A stretch of 64,000 nucleotides of DNA from Bacillota bacterium (GTDB lineage: Bacteria > Bacillota > Clostridia > Peptostreptococcales > Anaerovoracaceae). Below the pieces are notes generated by a model that saw nothing but the letters and a program-made list of their open reading frames with translations, did no database searches and was not told the DNA's origin. A program made the translations under genes and the position numbers. Every line of letters starts with the position of its first letter. Within the stretch, counting starts at the first letter, position 1. The stretch lies in the NCBI GenBank assembly GCA_017941085.1, contig JAGAXF010000038.1, positions 1 through 64,000 on the forward strand, read 5' to 3'. This document shows positions 22,910-36,134 of this stretch, in pieces.

Positions 22910-23773
22910 ATGGCAGAAAACATGAATGATTATAGTAATTATATATATCCAGGGACAAATGTGAGCCTGAGAGATGTTCAAGAAGTCGAATTTGAAATAT
23001 TAGTAGAGTTTGACAGAATATGTAAAGAGGAAAAGATCCCGTATCAACTGTTTGCAGGAACGCTTTTAGGTGCAGTCAGACATCATGATTTTATACCTTG
23101 GGATGACGATATTGACGTATGCATGATGAGAGATGACTTTGAACGGTTTATAAAGGTATGTCCGAAGCATTTAGATAAAAAGTACTTCCTTCAGACGCAT
23201 GGAACAGATCCTAAATCTGTTGTTCAATTTGCAAAGATAAGAAAAAATGGGACTGTGGTTGAGAATAATGTTGATAACCTTCCGGACACAAATACAGGTA
23301 TTTGGATTGATATTTTCCCACTAGACAAAACCAAACACGGAACTATAGCGGAGAAAGTACAGTATTTTGAAGTGACGGTTTTATATGCAATGATTACTTC
23401 TACGGTGAAAAGTAGAGTTTCAGTGAGCCAGAAGCCATGGAAAAAATGCTTAAGAACAGCTTTTTATGGAATAACAAAAGTTGTACCGAAGCATGCACTT
23501 GAGAGTAGGCTATATAAAGTCATGACAAGATATAATAACGCAGATACAGGCTATGTTGGGAATTATGCTAACGGGACTGGCTGGAGTTATACTGCACATG
23601 TGAGAAAAACTGAGGGATTCTATAACATAATAGAAACTGAGTTTCATGGACAGAGATTTCCTATTCCTCAAAATTATGATGAGGTGCTCACGAATTCTTA
23701 TGGCGATTATATGAAATTCCCACCTGAAGAAAAAAGACAACCTACACATGGGATTACAAGGGTGGTAATTTAG
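22910..23773 (+). CDS. LicD-family phosphotransferase
   Basis: A 287-residue LicD protein. AGTLLGAVRHHDFIPWDDDI (about 48-67) is the family signature, with the DDD metal site of the nucleotidyltransferase fold. LicD enzymes move phosphocholine from CDP-choline to teichoic acids or glycans; relatives use other CDP-alcohols. Two donors are possible here: CDP-choline (or CDP-ethanolamine) from the lic operon at 29463-35339, or CDP-glycerol from the cytidylyltransferase gene that follows 14 bases later. Confidence 0.9.
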   Translation: MAENMNDYSNYIYPGTNVSLRDVQEVEFEILVEFDRICKEEKIPYQLFAGTLLGAVRHHDFIPWDDDIDVCMMRDDFERFIKVCPKHLDKKYFLQTHGTDPKSVVQFAKIRKNGTVVENNVDNLPDTNTGIWIDIFPLDKTKHGTIAEKVQYFEVTVLYAMITSTVKSRVSVSQKPWKKCLRTAFYGITKVVPKHALESRLYKVMTRYNNADTGYVGNYANGTGWSYTAHVRKTEGFYNIIETEFHGQRFPIPQNYDEVLTNSYGDYMKFPPEEKRQPTHGITRVVI

Positions 23774-28267: not shown

Positions 28268-29299
28268 ATGACAAAAGAGAGACTGACCTACCTACTTACC
28301 GGCGGTACTGGATACATTGGTTCCCATACCGCTGTAGAAATGATTAATAATGGATATGAAGTTGTTATCGTAGATAATCTGTATAACAGCTCTGATGTTG
28401 TGGTGGATAGAATTGAAAAGATTACAGGCATAAGACCTAAGTTCTATCCTTATGATGTTAGAGACAAGGATACCCTAAGGAGAGTTTTTGAAGAAAACTC
28501 AATTGAAGGGGTAATTCACTTTGCCGGCCTTAAGTCGGTAGGTGAGTCTGTTGATAGACCCCTTGATTATTACAGAAATAATCTAGATAGCACATTGTCC
28601 CTTCTAGAGATAATGAAAGAATTCAACGTTAACAATTTTGTTTTTAGTTCCTCCGCTACGGTGTATGGAGAAGGAAATCCAAGTCCATATACAGAGGATA
28701 TGCCCAAGGGTAATTGTTCTAATCCGTATGGGTGGACTAAATCAATGATTGAGCAAATTCTGACGGATGCAGCAGTTGCTAATCCAGAGCTATCTGTGGT
28801 ACTCCTTAGATATTTTAATCCTATAGGAGCTCATGAGTCGGGATTAATAGGGGAAGATCCCCAGGGGATACCCAATAATCTTATGCCCTATGTTTCACAG
28901 GTTGCAATTGGTAGAAGGGAAAAACTAACCATTTTTGGCAATGACTACGATACACCCGATGGAACAGGAGAGAGAGATTTCATCCATGTGGTGGATTTGG
29001 CAGAAGGCCACGTCAAGGCGATAGATTACGCCAAGAGCCATAAGGGGATAGAAGTTTTTAATCTGGGAACAGGAAATCCATACAGTGTTTTGGATATAGT
29101 TAACACCTTTATGGAGGTAACTGGTGCTGAAGTTAAGTACGAGTTTGGTCCAAGAAGAGCAGGGGATTTAGCTGCTGTGTGGGCAGATCCTTCCAAGTCT
29201 GAGAAGGTGCTAGGATGGAAAGCTACACGTGATCTACGTAAAATGTGTGAAGACACCTGGAACTGGCAGAAGAATAACCCAAATGGGTATAAGAAATAA
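28268..29299 (+). CDS. galE: UDP-glucose/UDP-GlcNAc 4-epimerase GalE
   Basis: A 343-residue extended SDR enzyme. It has TGGTGYIGSHTAVEM (11-25), FAGLKSVGES, SSATVYG with the catalytic Ser, the YGWTK motif with the catalytic Tyr-Lys, and RYFNPIGAHESG. It swaps the C4 configuration of UDP-hexoses. It may supply UDP-Gal or UDP-GalNAc to the glycan assembly above. The ATG directly follows the stop of the preceding gene, so the two are translated together. Confidence 0.95.
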   Translation: MTKERLTYLLTGGTGYIGSHTAVEMINNGYEVVIVDNLYNSSDVVVDRIEKITGIRPKFYPYDVRDKDTLRRVFEENSIEGVIHFAGLKSVGESVDRPLDYYRNNLDSTLSLLEIMKEFNVNNFVFSSSATVYGEGNPSPYTEDMPKGNCSNPYGWTKSMIEQILTDAAVANPELSVVLLRYFNPIGAHESGLIGEDPQGIPNNLMPYVSQVAIGRREKLTIFGNDYDTPDGTGERDFIHVVDLAEGHVKAIDYAKSHKGIEVFNLGTGNPYSVLDIVNTFMEVTGAEVKYEFGPRRAGDLAAVWADPSKSEKVLGWKATRDLRKMCEDTWNWQKNNPNGYKK

Positions 29300-29462: not shown

Positions 29463-31274
29463 ATGCAAGCTATTATTCTTGCCGCTGGCATGGGTCGAAG
29501 ACTAAAGGATTTAACTAAAGAGAATACCAAATGTATGGTTAAGGTGAATGATAAAACCTTGATCCAACGCATGCTGGGCCAAATTGATGCTAAGGGCTTT
29601 AGTCGGGTTGTTATAGTTGTGGGGTATGAAGGAGAGAAACTTAAGGAATATATAAGCTCTCTGGATGTCAGCACACCGATTGTTTTTGTTGAGAATCCGG
29701 TGTACGACAAAACTAATAATATTTACTCCCTGTATTTGGCAAGGGATTATTTGCAGGAAGAAGACACAGTTCTATTTGAATCGGACCTTATATTCGAAGA
29801 CTCGGTTTTGGATTCGCTTCTTGATGATCCCAATAAAAACCTTGTTCTGGTGGATAAGTATGAATCCTGGATGTCCGGTACCTGTGTGAAGTTGTCAGAA
29901 GAAAGTGAGATTCTAAGCTATATATCCGGAACCAATTTCGACTTCCACGAGATTGATAAGTATTACAAAACTGTAAATATATACAAGTTCAATAAGGATT
30001 TTTCCTCCAAGTATTACGTGCCATTTCTTGAGGCGTATCTGGATGCTCTGGGAAACAATGAATACTACGAGCAGGTCCTTAAGGTTATTACCATGCTTGA
30101 TGGCAAAAGCCTGAAAGCAAAGAAGCTAGATAATCAGAAATGGTATGAGATAGATGACATTCAGGATCTAAACATAGCCGAATCCATATTTGCTGAAGAG
30201 CCTCATGAAAGGGTGAATCTTATTAATTCCAGATATGGAGGCTACTGGAGATATCCAAAGCTTTTGGATTTCTGCTATTTGGTTAATCCATACTATCCGC
30301 CTAAGATGTTAAGGGAGGAGCTCCGCGCCAGCTTCGACACTCTATTAACGGAATATCCCAGCGGTATGTATGTTAATTCTCTTCTGGCGGGAAATATCTT
30401 TAGTGTAAAAGAAGAGAATATAGTTGTGGGTAATGGTGCGGCGGAATTAATTAAGTCTTTAATGGAAAGACTTAAGGGTAAGGTGGGATTCATTAGACCT
30501 ACCTTCGAGGAATATCCCAACAGATATGATGCATCCAATTCTGTGAATTATTTCCCGGAGAACCCTGACTATAGCTATACTGCCCAGGATATTATGGAAT
30601 TCTTTAATGGTCAGGATGTGGATTCCTTACTCATAGTCAACCCAGACAATCCCAGCGGTAATTACATACCAAAGCCGGATTTACTTAAACTAATTGCCTG
30701 GTCAAAAGAGAAGAATATAAAGATTATTATTGATGAATCCTTTGTTGACTTTGCAGATGAGGAGGATAGTTCCTTAATAGATCAAGAGTTATTGGATGAG
30801 AATAAACACCTCTATGTTATGAAAAGCATTTCCAAATCCTACGGTGTTCCTGGTTTGCGACTAGGTATTCTTGCTTCCGGGGATAAGGACATGATTCAGT
30901 GGATGAAAAAGGACGTGTCGATTTGGAATATTAACTCCTTTGCTGAGTTCTTTATGCAGATAGAGGAGAAGTACAAGGGGGATTATGAAGCTGGCCTTGT
31001 AAAACTGAGGGAAGAAAGAAAACGTTTTGAAACGGAATTAAATAAATTGGATGATTTTAGAGTTATTCCTTCCCAGGCCAATTATGTGATGGTAGAAGTT
31101 GAAAAGGGTTCATCCGAAGAACTGCAGAAGGAACTTCTCGTTAACTATGATATCTTAATTAAGGACCTTTCACCCAAGTTGGGAGGGTGCTCAAATTACA
31201 TTAGGCTTGCCATAAGAAAACGAGAAGAAAATGATTTGCTGCTGAATGCATTAAAGAAGTTATCATCCAGGTGA
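29463..31274 (+). CDS. Cytidylyltransferase fused to a CobD/HisC-like PLP enzyme
   Basis: A 603-residue two-domain protein. Residues 1-240 are a LicC-like sugar-phosphate/alcohol-phosphate nucleotidyltransferase (LAAGMGRRLKDLTKENTKCM at 6-25; VFESDLIFED for metal). Residues 245-603 are a fold type I PLP enzyme related to HisC and CobD: YPSGMYVNSLLAGNIF, GNGAAELIKSLMERL, INPDNPSGNYIPKPDLL-like motif, and the Schiff-base Lys458 in SISKSYGVPGLRLG. CobD relatives decarboxylate phospho-amino acids, so the fusion might turn a phospho-amino acid into a CDP-amino-alcohol. A fused transaminase, as in PntC, is the alternative. Strong AGGAGGAAC ribosome site. First gene of the lic operon. Confidence 0.8.
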   Translation: MQAIILAAGMGRRLKDLTKENTKCMVKVNDKTLIQRMLGQIDAKGFSRVVIVVGYEGEKLKEYISSLDVSTPIVFVENPVYDKTNNIYSLYLARDYLQEEDTVLFESDLIFEDSVLDSLLDDPNKNLVLVDKYESWMSGTCVKLSEESEILSYISGTNFDFHEIDKYYKTVNIYKFNKDFSSKYYVPFLEAYLDALGNNEYYEQVLKVITMLDGKSLKAKKLDNQKWYEIDDIQDLNIAESIFAEEPHERVNLINSRYGGYWRYPKLLDFCYLVNPYYPPKMLREELRASFDTLLTEYPSGMYVNSLLAGNIFSVKEENIVVGNGAAELIKSLMERLKGKVGFIRPTFEEYPNRYDASNSVNYFPENPDYSYTAQDIMEFFNGQDVDSLLIVNPDNPSGNYIPKPDLLKLIAWSKEKNIKIIIDESFVDFADEEDSSLIDQELLDENKHLYVMKSISKSYGVPGLRLGILASGDKDMIQWMKKDVSIWNINSFAEFFMQIEEKYKGDYEAGLVKLREERKRFETELNKLDDFRVIPSQANYVMVEVEKGSSEELQKELLVNYDILIKDLSPKLGGCSNYIRLAIRKREENDLLLNALKKLSSR

Positions 31275-31295: not shown

Positions 31296-32516
31296 ATGAA
31301 TTATATGGAAGAATACAACCGCTGGCTAGAAAGCGATATAGTTAGTGAAGAGGATAAGGAGATTCTTAGAAATTATTCCGATGCAGAAATCGAAGAGTTT
31401 TTCGATTCTCCTCTTAATTTTGGGACGGCGGGAATAAGAAAGAAAATGTTCTTGGGTTCAGGCGCATTAAATAAATATACTGTTGCGCACATTACTAGAG
31501 GTGTATGTGACTTTGTGCTGTCCCAGGGAAAAGCCAATCCGTCAGTAGTAATCGTCTACGACTCCAGAAACAACAGTAAAGAATTTGCAGAACTGACGTC
31601 CAGGGTGCTTGCAGCAAAGGGCATTCACGTATTCCTTTATGAAGATATTAGACCTACCCCTGAACTATCTTTTGCTGTGAGATATTCGCAATCAGCGGCA
31701 GGAATTAATATTACCGCTAGCCACAATACGAAAGAGTATAATGGCTACAAGGTATATGGACCTGATGGCATACAGCTTTCGCCGGAAGAAGCAGCCAAAG
31801 TTGCCGCTGTTATTGACGGCAATGATGTGCTGAATCCCCCTGAAGAAATGGACTTTGATAAGGCTGTGGAATCAGGCACGATAGAACTAATTAATGGCTA
31901 TTTTGATAATATCTATTTGGCTAGGGTCCTTCAGCAATCTTTGATGTCGGAGGATGTTAGAGAAAAAGCAAAGGATATGAAGGTAGTTTACACAGCCTTC
32001 CATGGCACAGGGTCCGTATTTGTTCCTCGTGTTCTTGAGAGAGATGGCTTTGAGAAGGTAATATGTGAACCAAACCAGATCATTCCTGATGGAGATTTTC
32101 CCACGGTAAAAAGTCCCAATCCTGAAACGAAGGAAAGTTTTAAACTAGCCATCGAGCTGGCGGAAAAAGAAGGGTCAGATTTAGTAATTGGCACTGATCC
32201 CGATGGAGATAGGTGCGGTGTTGCAGTTAGAGGAAGTAACGGCTTTGAAGTTTTAACAGGAAACCAGGTGGGAATACTTCTTTTGGATTACATTATTAAA
32301 TCAAGAGAAGCTAGTGGTGGGATTCCTGAACGCAACGATTATCTAACTGCTATTAACGCAAGAGATAAAGATGCTATTCTGGCTTCCATGCTTGTCGCTG
32401 AGGCGGCCTGCTATCATATGTGCCAAGGGAAAACTTTGCTGGAAGCACTGGTTGATGCAGAAAAAACGGTGTCAGAATTGGAATCAGAAATCAATTCCTG
32501 GGGAATAATTAATTGA
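31296..32516 (+). pseudogene. Phosphohexomutase with internal deletion and lost C-terminus
   Basis: A 406-residue relative of phosphoglucomutase/phosphomannomutase (PgcA type, normally about 570 residues). Present: FGTAGIRKKMFLGSGALNKY, the active-site ITASHNTKEYNGYK, and the metal loop GTDPDGDRCGV. After IPERNDYLTAIN the sequence jumps straight to ARDKDAILASMLVAEAACYH. The intact family has about 75 residues here, including the sugar-binding GxEESxGY loop. The protein then ends at once after LLEALVDAEKT, so the phosphate-binding fourth domain is missing. The frame is open, but mutase activity is very unlikely. It could be a remnant or, less likely, a repurposed fragment. Confidence 0.7.
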
Positions 32517-32544: not shown

Positions 32545-33417
32545 ATGCATGTTGACAACGGTATAATTATGGCGGCAGGGATGTCAAGTAGATTTGCTCC
32601 TCTATCCTATGAGACTCACAAGGGGTTAATAGAGGTAAAGGGCGAGATTTTAATTGAGCGGCAAATTAAGCAGCTAATAGATGCCGGTGTACCAAAGGTA
32701 ATTGTGGTAACTGGCTATATGGCTGACAGATTTGATTATCTTAAGGGCAAATATGGAGTTGAGCTCATCTTTAATGAAGAGTTCAATACCAGAAACAATA
32801 ACGGCTCCATTTGGACAGCAAAGGAATACTTAGGAAATAGCTATGTCTGCTCGGCGGATAATTTTTTTTCAGAGAATCCCTTCGAAAATGATGTGGATGA
32901 CGCATACTATGCCGCCGTCTACGCTGATGGCGAAACTAAAGAATGGTGTATGACGGAGGATGAGAAGGGCTACATTATAGATGTAAAAGTCGGCGGGAGA
33001 GATGCCTGGTATATGCTGGGTCACACCTTCTGGGATGAAGACTTCAGTAATAGTTTTTTGGAAATCCTAGTGGAGGAGTATGAAAACCCGGAGACCCTTG
33101 ATAAGCTTTGGGAAAGCATTTTTATGGAGCACCTGGATTCTCTCAAGATGAAGATAAAGAAGTATCCTGATGGTGTAATCCACGAGTTCGATACTTTGGA
33201 CGAACTAAGGCAGTTTGATGAAAGCTATATCACAGATACCAGGTCCTCCATAATCAAAGGATTGATGAAGGAATTAGGTGGCAAGGAAGAAGAAATCAAA
33301 GAGATTACTGCTATAAAAGGCCAGGGTAATAAAGCGTCAGGGTTCAGCTTTTTATACAGGAATAATAGATTCGAATATGATTACAATACGGCTAAGTTAA
33401 TTGAGTCCGCTAAGTAG
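32545..33417 (+). CDS. licC: Choline-phosphate cytidylyltransferase LicC-like
   Basis: A 290-residue nucleotidyltransferase. The N-terminal NTP motif is IIMAAGMSSRFAPLSYETHK (8-27), with VTGYMADRF, and SADNFFSENPF for metal binding. The first 230 residues match LicC, which makes CDP-choline. The last 60 form a small extra domain (GLMKELGGKEEEIKEITAIK) that looks like a short kinase-leader region or linker. It lies directly before the choline kinase gene, in the usual lic order. It is the second cytidylyltransferase of this operon. Confidence 0.85.
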   Translation: MHVDNGIIMAAGMSSRFAPLSYETHKGLIEVKGEILIERQIKQLIDAGVPKVIVVTGYMADRFDYLKGKYGVELIFNEEFNTRNNNGSIWTAKEYLGNSYVCSADNFFSENPFENDVDDAYYAAVYADGETKEWCMTEDEKGYIIDVKVGGRDAWYMLGHTFWDEDFSNSFLEILVEEYENPETLDKLWESIFMEHLDSLKMKIKKYPDGVIHEFDTLDELRQFDESYITDTRSSIIKGLMKELGGKEEEIKEITAIKGQGNKASGFSFLYRNNRFEYDYNTAKLIESAK

Positions 33418-33443: not shown

Positions 33444-34358
33444 ATGGCAGAACTTATTAGAGAAATTGAAGAACAGGACATCCCCAAGTTAAAAGAATTA
33501 CTTAAGACTGTATTTGGCGATGATGAATATATAGACATAGAGCGCCTGGGAGGAATGACCAATCATTCATACAAAATGACCAGACCGGATAATAATGAAT
33601 ACTTGGTTCGAATCCCCGGTGAAGGAACCGAGGAAATGATTAATCGTTCAGACGAAAGGAAGAGCACCCAGCTGGCCTGTGACCTGGGGATCGACTCGGA
33701 ACTTCTTTACTTTGGTGATGACGGAAGGAAGGTAATGAGGTTCATCCCCAATCCTCAGCCCATGAGCGAAGAGGTGATGAGGAGAAAGGAAAATCTTGTG
33801 CAGGCCGCCGATATTTTCCACAGACTTCACACCTGCAACGTGGATACGGGGGTAAGGTTTGAGGTTTTTGAAATGGCAGATCTTTATGAAAAGATAATTC
33901 GTGATGGCGGTGTATCTTTCTATGATGATTATGACCAGGTGAAAAATACGGTGATAGAGATAAAGGCTGCTGTTGACAGCACCGGTGAAGCTCCCAAGGT
34001 TCCCTGCCACAATGATTCCCTAGTGGGCAACTGGGTTATAGATGGCGATGGAAAGCTCTATCTGGTGGATTGGGAATACAGCGGTATGAATGAGGCCATG
34101 TGGGATTTATCCTGCCTATCTATCGAGGCGGACTATACAGAAGAGAATGATGCTGATCTGCTGGAAGCCTATTACGGAAGAAATGCCACGGTAGAGGAGA
34201 AGAAGCGTTTCGTTGCAGCAAAGCTATATGTGGACTATCTATGGACTTTATGGGGATTAACTAGAGTACCCTTTGATGGTCAGTTTATGCAGGACTACGC
34301 AGATGCCAGATATGAGAGGCTTAAGAATAATATTCAGGCCTACAATCAGATTGCTTAG
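33444..34358 (+). CDS. licA: Choline kinase LicA-like
   Basis: A 304-residue aminoglycoside/choline kinase-fold protein. GGMTNHSYKM near residue 36 is the nucleotide loop, and the catalytic motif is HNDSLVGNW (His189, Asp191, Asn196), followed by the metal-binding YLVDWEYSGMNEAMWDLS. LicA phosphorylates choline taken up from outside; ethanolamine kinases are close relatives. A strong AGGAGG precedes the ATG. The gene lies between the cytidylyltransferase and the permease of the same pathway. Confidence 0.88.
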   Translation: MAELIREIEEQDIPKLKELLKTVFGDDEYIDIERLGGMTNHSYKMTRPDNNEYLVRIPGEGTEEMINRSDERKSTQLACDLGIDSELLYFGDDGRKVMRFIPNPQPMSEEVMRRKENLVQAADIFHRLHTCNVDTGVRFEVFEMADLYEKIIRDGGVSFYDDYDQVKNTVIEIKAAVDSTGEAPKVPCHNDSLVGNWVIDGDGKLYLVDWEYSGMNEAMWDLSCLSIEADYTEENDADLLEAYYGRNATVEEKKRFVAAKLYVDYLWTLWGLTRVPFDGQFMQDYADARYERLKNNIQAYNQIA

Positions 34359-34400: not shown

Positions 34401-35339
34401 ATGATAGCAGGTATTATTGCAGGTATAACATGGGCCATAGAGACAATTGTATTAGGAGTGGCTCTTGCCATGAGTCCTTTTGTAAGTACGGAGCAGGCTG
34501 TTATGTTGGCTCCCTTTGCGAGTACTTTTTTGCATGACTCCTTTTCAGCCATATGGTCATGTGTGTATAACGGGGCAAGGGGAAACCTGCCTAATGTAAT
34601 CAAAGCCTTAAAAACCCGTAGCGGCAGGTTTGTTGCTTTGGCAGCGGTAATTGGTGGACCTGTTGGAATGACAGGATATGTACTCTCTGTTGCCAATATG
34701 GGGGCGTCAATTGGTGCTGTTGCCAGTGCTATTTTTCCTGCTATTGGTGCGGTACTGGCATACTTTTTCCTAAAGGAAAAGATGCAGTGGTACAGATGGG
34801 TATTCCTTATTATCAGTTTGCTGGGGGTTTATGGATTAAGTTATTCGCCGGAAATCAATATAACGAACTTCTGGCTAGGCTTTGCCGGCACCCTTATGTG
34901 CGCCTTTGGATGGGGAATTGAAGCCGTAATCATTGCCAAAAGTGTGCAAGATGATTCTGTTACGGATGAGATAGCTCTTCAAATTAGACAGACCACATCG
35001 GCCATTGTATATGGTGTTGTTCTACTTCCCATTTTAAAGGGTTGGGGTTTTACCCTATCTTTATTCTCGGGAACAGGTACCCTTATTCCTATTATTGCAG
35101 CTGCTGCACTGTTTGCAACGGTGTCATATCTTTTCTACTACAAGGCCATCTCACAAATAGGAGCATCAAAGGCCATGGCTCTGAATATTACCTATTCCGC
35201 CTGGGCAGTTGTAATTGGAATTATCGTTTTGAGAGATATGTCCTTACTGAACCCCGTTACAATAATCTGTACGGTAGTGGTTCTGGTCTTCGCTATTCTG
35301 GCAGGGGCCGACTATAAGGAACTCATAAAGAAGGAATAG
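34401..35339 (+). CDS. licB: Choline permease LicB-like (DMT/EamA family)
   Basis: A 312-residue transporter with ten hydrophobic helices in two EamA-like halves (about 1-140 and 150-310). GIIAGITWAIETIVLGVALA at the N-terminus and AFGWGIEAVIIAKSVQDD midway mark the two repeats. LicB imports choline in Streptococcus and Haemophilus. Its place directly after LicC and LicA supports the same substrate here. TAGGAGGA ribosome site. Last gene of the operon. Confidence 0.87.
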   Translation: MIAGIIAGITWAIETIVLGVALAMSPFVSTEQAVMLAPFASTFLHDSFSAIWSCVYNGARGNLPNVIKALKTRSGRFVALAAVIGGPVGMTGYVLSVANMGASIGAVASAIFPAIGAVLAYFFLKEKMQWYRWVFLIISLLGVYGLSYSPEINITNFWLGFAGTLMCAFGWGIEAVIIAKSVQDDSVTDEIALQIRQTTSAIVYGVVLLPILKGWGFTLSLFSGTGTLIPIIAAAALFATVSYLFYYKAISQIGASKAMALNITYSAWAVVIGIIVLRDMSLLNPVTIICTVVVLVFAILAGADYKELIKKE

Positions 35340-35361: not shown

Positions 35362-35766
35362 TTAGCTGGCGGAAACCCAGTCCTCCAAATTAAGGCTAGG
35401 GACTCTAGAAAACTCGGAGGTATTGTGGGTTACTATAGAGAATCCTGTAGAAAGGCCTTGAGATGCAATAAGTAAATCATAAGGACCTATGGGCAACCCT
35501 TGGCTTTCAAGGGTTGCTCTTATTTGTCCGGAAATAAGAGCGTCCTTTTCTGTAAAGGGCAGGATGTTAAAGGCGGAGAGAAAAAGAAGCATATTTAGAC
35601 GGTTTTGCTCCTTCCATTTACTCTTGGCTGCGCCGTATTCCAGCTCACCAACGGTAATTGAAGAAATGTAAATATCCCTAGGATTGACTGTCAAAAGCTT
35701 TTTCCTAAGGTTTGGGTAAATATCCTTCATGGCGTAGATGCAAATATTTGTATCAAGGATATACAT
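35362..35766 (-). CDS. vapC: VapC-type PIN-domain ribonuclease toxin
   Basis: A 134-residue PIN-domain protein. The acidic site is Asp5 (YILDTNICIY), Glu41 (VGELEYG) and Asp97 (GPYDLLIA). The usual fourth acidic position reads THNTSEF, with Asn, as in many active VapC proteins. VapC toxins cleave tRNA or rRNA. The start lies 2 bases after the antitoxin stop, the normal operon form. It converges on the licB gene. Confidence 0.93.
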   Translation of the reverse strand: MYILDTNICIYAMKDIYPNLRKKLLTVNPRDIYISSITVGELEYGAAKSKWKEQNRLNMLLFLSAFNILPFTEKDALISGQIRATLESQGLPIGPYDLLIASQGLSTGFSIVTHNTSEFSRVPSLNLEDWVSAS

Positions 35767-35768
35767 GA

Positions 35769-36005
35769 TTAAAGGTCCTCGCGTTTTTCAATGGCCGTCC
35801 AATCGGGCCTCTTAAAATCATCAAAGGCATCATCAGAGAATGAACCTATTGATGCTTTAATTGGATACCAAGGATCATCGGTAGGAAAGAGAATAAGTAC
35901 ATCCCCAAATTTATGGATGTAGAATTCGGATTTGTCCGTTTGAGACTCCTTTGGTATACGTATGGCTTGGCTGTTTCCGCTTTTAAATACTTTAGCCTTT
36001 AGCAT
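35769..36005 (-). CDS. vapB: VapB-type antitoxin (AbrB-like)
   Basis: A 78-residue antitoxin. Residues 1-45 form an AbrB/MazE swapped-hairpin DNA-binding domain (LKAKVFKSGNSQAIRIPKES). The C-terminal part (SFSDDAFDDFKRPDWTAIEK) is the toxin-binding arm. The chosen ATG at 36005 has a proper AAGGAGGG ribosome site; earlier in-frame starts would add 31 unrelated hydrophobic residues. It should repress its own promoter together with VapC. Confidence 0.93.
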   Translation of the reverse strand: MLKAKVFKSGNSQAIRIPKESQTDKSEFYIHKFGDVLILFPTDDPWYPIKASIGSFSDDAFDDFKRPDWTAIEKREDL

Positions 36006-36022
36006 AGAACATCCCTCCTTAT

Positions 36023-36061
36023 GTATATACGTATAGTATATACAAATATAAAAGATGTCAA
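36023..36061 (-). promoter_or_regulatory. vapBC promoter with two palindromic operator sites
   Basis: The 8-bp palindrome GTATATAC occurs at 36023-36030 and 36036-36043. A TTGACA -35 on the minus strand is at 36061-36056. The -10 (TATACT or the overlapping TACTAT) falls within the right-hand palindrome, so binding there would block transcription. Confidence 0.55.
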
Positions 36062-36134
36062 TATGGAAATATTTACCATATTCTATACTGTAGACCAATT
36101 ATTAAGGCTTGTCAATGGCCGCCCCAAAAAATCC

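Follow-up and report, generated by a model that had tools for sequence, protein, structure and literature searches.

The closest described counterpart of the protein analysed here is FrbH, from the biosynthesis of the antimalarial antibiotic FR-900098 in Streptomyces rubellomurinus, a bifunctional enzyme with an N-terminal cytidylyltransferase and a C-terminal PLP decarboxylase, by which 2-amino-4-phosphonobutyrate is cytidylylated and decarboxylated to CMP-3-aminopropylphosphonate; loss of the catalytic lysine of its nucleotidyltransferase (NTase) domain, K38, abolishes activity (PMC8976061, PMC6697681, PMC8007912). The same domain order is found in PntC-AEPT of Treponema denticola (Tde1415; PDB 6pd1 and 6pd2), in which the PLP half is a class V AEP transaminase of a phosphonate pathway. 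Glu104 and Glu196 of PntC lie beside the primary amine of AEP, whereas at those positions LicC has smaller Asp residues, together with an aromatic box for choline (PMC6697681). Decarboxylation of phosphoserine to phosphoethanolamine is also already known: the L-serine phosphate decarboxylase Cj1436 of Campylobacter jejuni provides ethanolamine phosphate for the capsule (PMC12409886), and the L-serine-O-phosphate decarboxylase of Sulfurospirillum (SMUL_1544 family; PDB 6oux) acts in cobamide biosynthesis. Our literature search found no description of a fusion leading from phosphoserine to CDP-ethanolamine; the FrbH design and phosphoserine decarboxylation are known, and no description was found in the literature of such a design in the genomic setting reported below, with its expected substrate and its partner genes.

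We analysed a stretch of 64,000 nucleotides from a Bacillota bacterium (contig JAGAXF010000038.1), here called the window, in which an NTase–PLP fusion gene stands at the head of a short run of genes with a complete licC-licA-licB set. The features considered are the following.

22910..23773, forward strand: LicD-family phosphotransferase, a candidate transferase and the sole LicD found in the genome
23788..24243, forward strand: TagD-like cytidylyltransferase of the glycerol-3-phosphate type, as read from sequence
28268..29299, forward strand: UDP-glucose 4-epimerase-like (galE-like) gene, 163 nt 5' of the fusion
29463..31274, forward strand: NTase–PLP fusion, 603 aa, ATG start (open reading frame and Pfam)
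29463..30197, forward strand: N-terminal cytidylyltransferase domain of the fusion, PntC-like, aa 1-245
30225..31271, forward strand: C-terminal PLP domain of the fusion, Ser-P decarboxylase clade, aa 255-603
31296..32516, forward strand: phosphoglucomutase/phosphomannomutase-like gene, 406 aa, Pfam domains I and II only
32545..33417, forward strand: LicC, CTP:phosphocholine cytidylyltransferase, grouping with S. pneumoniae LicC
33444..34358, forward strand: LicA-like choline/ethanolamine kinase (PF01633, E 3.8e-22)
34401..35339, forward strand: EamA-family permease (PF00892), LicB-like, presumably for choline uptake

The five genes from the fusion through the phosphomutase-like, LicC, LicA-like and EamA/LicB-like genes are separated by gaps of only 21, 28, 26 and 42 nt, so the preliminary description of the region, which placed the fusion in a lic operon together with a second, separate LicC-like enzyme, holds on both points. 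The LicD gene lies ~6 kb upstream of the fusion and adjoins the TagD-like gene; no second LicD was found in the assembly (1.66 Mb, 96% complete), and three Glyphos_transf proteins are encoded elsewhere in the genome. The phosphomutase-like gene, which is in frame in the operon, lacks Pfam domains III and IV and is 36% identical to an open frame of 559 aa at another place in the genome; it is probably a degenerate, decaying paralogue. A sigma-70 scan of the operon gave promoter-like sites no more numerous than in shuffled sequences. Two small genes 3' of the operon (35362-36098, minus strand) face the lic genes and, to judge from a reading of the sequence, may encode a PIN protein of the VapC type together with a VapB-type partner.

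Pfam placed NTP_transf_3/NTP_transferase (MobA-like) at aa 3-122 of the fusion (E ~3e-11) and Aminotran_1_2 at aa 314-597 (E 5.7e-30). When GTDB species genomes were scanned, 391 relatives were confirmed, 80 of which, matching over the full length at 63-69% identity, were kept for alignment and locus counts; a chance join or an assembly join is therefore rejected, and one or two of the 80 are interrupted by a frameshift. The carriers are scattered among Clostridia, Erysipelotrichia (Erysipelotrichaceae), Spirochaetes and others. Of 291 genomes sampled evenly from the class to which the window belongs, 9 had the fusion at E <= 1e-60, the window's own counted, with no other member of its own genus or family among the nine, and a search of 60 nearer relatives gave no full-length fusion among the matches listed. 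Plasmid records added more distant fusions, at 31-35% identity, from Gloeothece, Priestia, Rahnella, Erwinia and Pseudonocardia, and a homologue in Fusobacterium vincentii (50% identity). The last of these records, 'plasmid' pSB055A (L135; NZ_CP084075.1), has a length of 2.1 Mb and a single annotated feature, and looks like a chromosome that was deposited under a plasmid label. We interpret the fusion as a horizontally moving surface-polysaccharide gene, of which such a patchy distribution is expected.

The two halves were compared separately with their relatives. Against solved structures, the NTase domain matched PntC (6pd1) with 59.6 bits over aa 2-239, whereas its alignment with LicC, a member of the same superfamily, was limited to aa 2-115 and so ended within the first 115 residues; the operon's separate LicC, by contrast, matched S. 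pneumoniae LicC (1jyk) with 141.8 bits over its length. The NTase tree set LicC-type domains apart from fusion-type domains, with long branches that leave the placement of PntC unsure. The LicC-like identity first given to the fused domain is thus rejected, as the domain has a partial LicC match, falls outside the LicC branch and is PntC-like. Residues R13, K23, E106, D108 and E229 are invariant in all 80 aligned fusions; K23, the CTP-site lysine, aligns with PntC K25 and FrbH K38, and E106 aligns with PntC E104. Judged from these residues, the NTase would be expected to act on a small phosphate bearing a primary amine rather than on phosphocholine.

For the PLP half, the Schiff-base lysine that had been reported as intact is K458 (SISKSYGVPG), which none of the 80 aligned fusions lacks, and because D424, N396, R466 and R581 are conserved along with it, the PLP site is intact; further features are a DESF motif, WNIN and K567/R581/R585. 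The earlier label of a CobD/HisC-like enzyme was right in so far as the domain is of class I/II and on the CobD/HisC side, but both profiles scored under their curated cut-offs (CobD, TIGR01140, the top NCBIfam profile, 172.5 bits against 290.55; HisC, TIGR01141, 152.2 bits against 276.55), and the best PDB match by sequence was 6oux, titled 'SMUL_1544, a decarboxylase'. In a maximum-likelihood tree the fusions, split proteins from rhizobia and the Sulfurospirillum Ser-O-P decarboxylase formed one branch (support 100/97), with CobD-like and HisC proteins on the opposite side. The rhizobial members of this clade are PEP-mutase-linked, and its one member of described function is known by its annotation ('norcobamide biosynthesis serine-O-phosphate decarboxylase') and its PDB title; the tree does not include Cj1436, Cj1437 and FrbH, and the relative nearness of these three is outside its reach. 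A second CobD-like PLP protein of the window's genome (L002; G000:C36:30661-31788) fell on the CobD side of the tree, below the CobD cut-off.

Motifs and fold were in line with this placement, making the Sulfurospirillum enzyme the nearest PLP-domain relative of described function. The two proteins have in common CYLxNPY, DESF, WNxN and a second C-terminal arginine, the last two being shared by the decarboxylases and absent in E. coli HisC, which has DEAY, PYPLS and RITVG instead; against the placement, the fusions have lysine at the position of CobD R323 (HisC R322), where the Sulfurospirillum enzyme has arginine. An AlphaFold2 model built from 18 sequences (mean pLDDT 77) gave Z scores of 30.8 for 6oux and 30.1 for CobD, which is a tie, and of 25-28 for most HisC chains; in the structure comparison with CobD, HisC and PntC that had been proposed, decarboxylase and CobD folds thus came out level ahead of most HisC chains, and Foldseek ranked PntC-AEPT first over the whole length.

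Likened by published descriptions, the fusion agrees with FrbH in having a PF12804-type NTase followed by a PF00155-type PLP domain in one chain, with the NTase lysine kept; it also has, by sequence, a PLP domain of the decarboxylase type with Schiff-base lysine K458. PntC-AEPT, previously taken as the nearest precedent, shares the domain order and a related NTase, but its class V transaminase differs from the fusion's PF00155 class I/II domain, and FrbH is nearer. The Sulfurospirillum enzyme differs in being a single domain without a cytidylyltransferase, and Cj1436, likened by description, in being a separate protein whose product is amidated to glucuronate, not CDP-activated. FrbH itself belongs to a C–P bond antibiotic pathway, whereas the fusion lies in a surface polysaccharide locus of a genome without PEP mutase, and a phosphate substrate, phosphoserine, is for this reason expected. 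The absence of PEP mutase lowers the fit to an FR-900098-type pathway, not to the FrbH mechanism.

The FrbH substrate 2-amino-4-phosphonobutyrate is the CH2-for-O isostere of L-phosphoserine; the phosphate counterpart of the FrbH reaction is therefore phosphoserine to CDP-ethanolamine. On sequence and on this analogy, we consider it probable that the fusion makes CDP-ethanolamine from phosphoserine, as a bifunctional synthase built like FrbH. The reaction, substrate, order of steps and acceptor that we infer are as follows. The PLP domain would decarboxylate L-phosphoserine, or CDP-serine if cytidylylation precedes as reported for FrbH, and the NTase domain would couple the substrate phosphate to CMP from CTP, giving as the net reaction L-serine-O-phosphate + CTP -> CDP-ethanolamine + CO2 + PPi. 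Given the FrbH precedent, cytidylylation may come first, with a path through CDP-serine. A CDP-alcohol phosphotransferase, LicD at 22910 or one of the three Glyphos_transf proteins, would then put phosphoethanolamine on the surface polysaccharide; LicD is a candidate only, and that the sole LicD of the genome stands beside a TagD-like gene counts against the proposal. In the same operon licC-licA-licB would provide CDP-choline from scavenged choline, while the fusion would make its own aminoalcohol de novo from an intermediate of serine biosynthesis. The route from phosphoserine through phosphoethanolamine to CDP-ethanolamine, already raised in the preliminary description, is the best fit to the PLP tree, the fold comparison, the PntC-like amine pocket and the lack of PEP mutase, all of which are comparative.

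The reading that competes most directly takes the PLP domain as an aminotransferase, which would work either like PntC-AEPT (phosphonoacetaldehyde to AEP) or like Cj1437 (dihydroxyacetone phosphate to serinol phosphate), with the NTase then giving CMP-AEP or CDP-serinol. The PntC-like NTase and the whole-length Foldseek rank of PntC-AEPT speak for it, as does Cj1437, which shows that a capsule PLP enzyme is able to make serinol phosphate (PMC12409886). Its strongest case is L044 (1-3639), where PEP mutase (truncated where the contig stops), phosphonopyruvate decarboxylase (Ppd) and the fusion are contiguous in that order and a TetR-like regulator comes next; its close relative L033 (2-2368) has Ppd and then the fusion, and PhnW was not found above cut-off in either genome. 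This arrangement suits an AEP-forming transaminase and is unexplained by the CDP-ethanolamine proposal, although the conserved active-site residues of these two fusions are the same as in the others. PEP mutase was above cut-off in 11 of 51 fusion genomes and not in the other 40, the window's included, so that AEP is not the general product; PhnW stands on the PEP-mutase contig in 4 of the 11, which for this reason do not need the fusion for AEP. The observation that phosphonate genes are not seen holds genome-wide, with no PEP mutase match (TIGR02320) in the window's 96%-complete assembly, and AEP or a phosphonate as general product is rejected for this genome, though it may apply to the L033/L044 lineage; the chromosome-size Fusobacterium record likewise had no PEP mutase above cut-off. 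As the PLP domain moreover sits in the decarboxylase clade, away from HisC and without DEAY, PYPLS or RITVG, we regard an aminotransferase as unlikely. Members of the enzyme family may also act in phosphonate pathways: rhizobial plasmids (L140 7753-11737; L141 6747-11221) carry PEP mutase beside separate LicC/PntC-like and HisC-like genes, the latter falling in the PLP clade of the fusion, along with either a CDP-alcohol transferase or another aminotransferase; no Ppd is annotated in these stretches, which suggests AEP formation by decarboxylation of phosphonoalanine, the compound to which phosphonopyruvate is transaminated by PnaA (PMC11867202).

A decarboxylase acting in the manner of CobD on phosphothreonine, with CDP-1-amino-2-propanol as the product, was the other version put forward at the outset. 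CobD is indeed the best NCBIfam profile, though below cut-off, and its structures tie with 6oux in Z; CDP-threonine has also been proposed as an intermediate of flagellin decoration (PMC10714395). The tree and the CYLxNPY and DESF motifs nevertheless side with the Ser-P enzyme, not with CobD, and the amine-side pocket residue is as in PntC, whose substrate is an unbranched two-carbon amine; the threonine version is less likely than the serine one, and on its own account a poor prospect. Alternatively, the NTase alone could set the product as a CDP-amino acid (CDP-serine or CDP-threonine), leaving the PLP domain another role such as racemisation, for which there is the precedent of a LicC-like NTase in C. 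difficile proposed to make CDP-threonine (PMC10714395). That the 80 fusions do not vary at any PLP catalytic residue, that the described member of the clade is a decarboxylase and that FrbH links the same two domains through decarboxylation make this highly improbable. CD0242 of C. difficile, described as a nucleotidyltransferase only (PMC10714395), was rejected as an instance of the same fusion.

Genes beside the related fusions point to further steps. An octopine/opine-dehydrogenase-like gene lies within 92 nt of the fusion at 30 of the 80 loci and an ornithine-cyclodeaminase-like (OCD-like) gene at 12, so that one or the other, never both, is found at 42 loci (for example L053 2947-4026 and L034 1687-2646); LicD is close to the fusion at 18. 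The nearest solved relatives of the former are octopine dehydrogenase and N-(1-D-carboxylethyl)-L-norvaline dehydrogenase (PDB 3c7a and 1bg6), and those of the latter are pyrroline/ketimine reductases and cyclodeaminases; enzymes of both families can couple amines with keto acids or reduce the imine. On plasmids, a SAM methyltransferase and LicD accompany the fusion in Gloeothece, and a CDP-alcohol transferase does so in Rahnella. The partner genes plausibly modify the aminoethyl nitrogen or transfer the unit, and one reading that unites them is that the fusion would make CDP-ethanolamine, its neighbours would modify the nitrogen and a CDP-alcohol transferase would hand the unit on, the reductase-type neighbours suggesting N-carboxyalkylated ethanolamine phosphates. 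We tentatively extend this to a widespread, horizontally moving family that would make CDP-ethanolamine de novo from phosphoserine for surface glycans and in which, at about half of the loci, an opine- or ketimine-type reductase would alkylate the amine with a keto acid to give CDP-N-(carboxyalkyl)ethanolamine; taken as a whole, this scheme has rather less than an even chance of being right. The window's operon would be a simpler version without the reductase: neither an opine dehydrogenase nor OCD was found in its genome, a weak absence as the octopine family was unmatched in control genomes too.

A different company was seen on Priestia megaterium QM B1551 plasmid pBM700 (L137 4534-12638; NC_014023.1 143159-151263), where the fusion occurs with two ATP-grasp proteins, a flavin N-oxygenase-like protein (PF13434, weak), an acetyltransferase of the AAC(3) type and an additional DXR gene; the plasmid has no PEP mutase. 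This cluster looks like the FR-900098 gene set minus the C–P bond step and is a candidate for the biosynthesis of fosfoxacin/fosfocytocin, phosphate and nucleotide congeners of fosmidomycin that occur in nature. A Rahnella sikkimica plasmid (L138 7716-17363) carries an N-oxygenase-like protein, 29% identical to that of Priestia, with the fusion, a CDP-alcohol phosphatidyltransferase, HAD/FkbH, MaoC, ATP-grasp and MFS proteins; matches H7 and H10 on Erwinia rhapontici plasmids belong to a related cluster and were grouped with it.

Phosphoethanolamine on bacterial surfaces usually comes from phosphatidylethanolamine by way of Ept-type transferases. If the proposal is true, the fusion would provide a soluble de novo route from phosphoserine to CDP-ethanolamine in one polypeptide, distinct from the Ept supply, and the proposed route would recur across gut Clostridia, Erysipelotrichia, Spirochaetes and Fusobacterium. 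RefSeq labels the plasmid-borne homologues only as 'aminotransferase class I/II-fold', a name so generic that the aminoalcohol content of those polysaccharide loci is currently unreadable. In Priestia, the occurrence of the domain pair with an extra DXR suggests that the route to the antibiotic FR-900098 has a phosphate-based counterpart. The wider scheme with a reductase, if true, would supply the missing biosynthesis of glycan units like N-(2-hydroxyethyl)-D-alanine phosphate, which is found in Proteus mirabilis O14.
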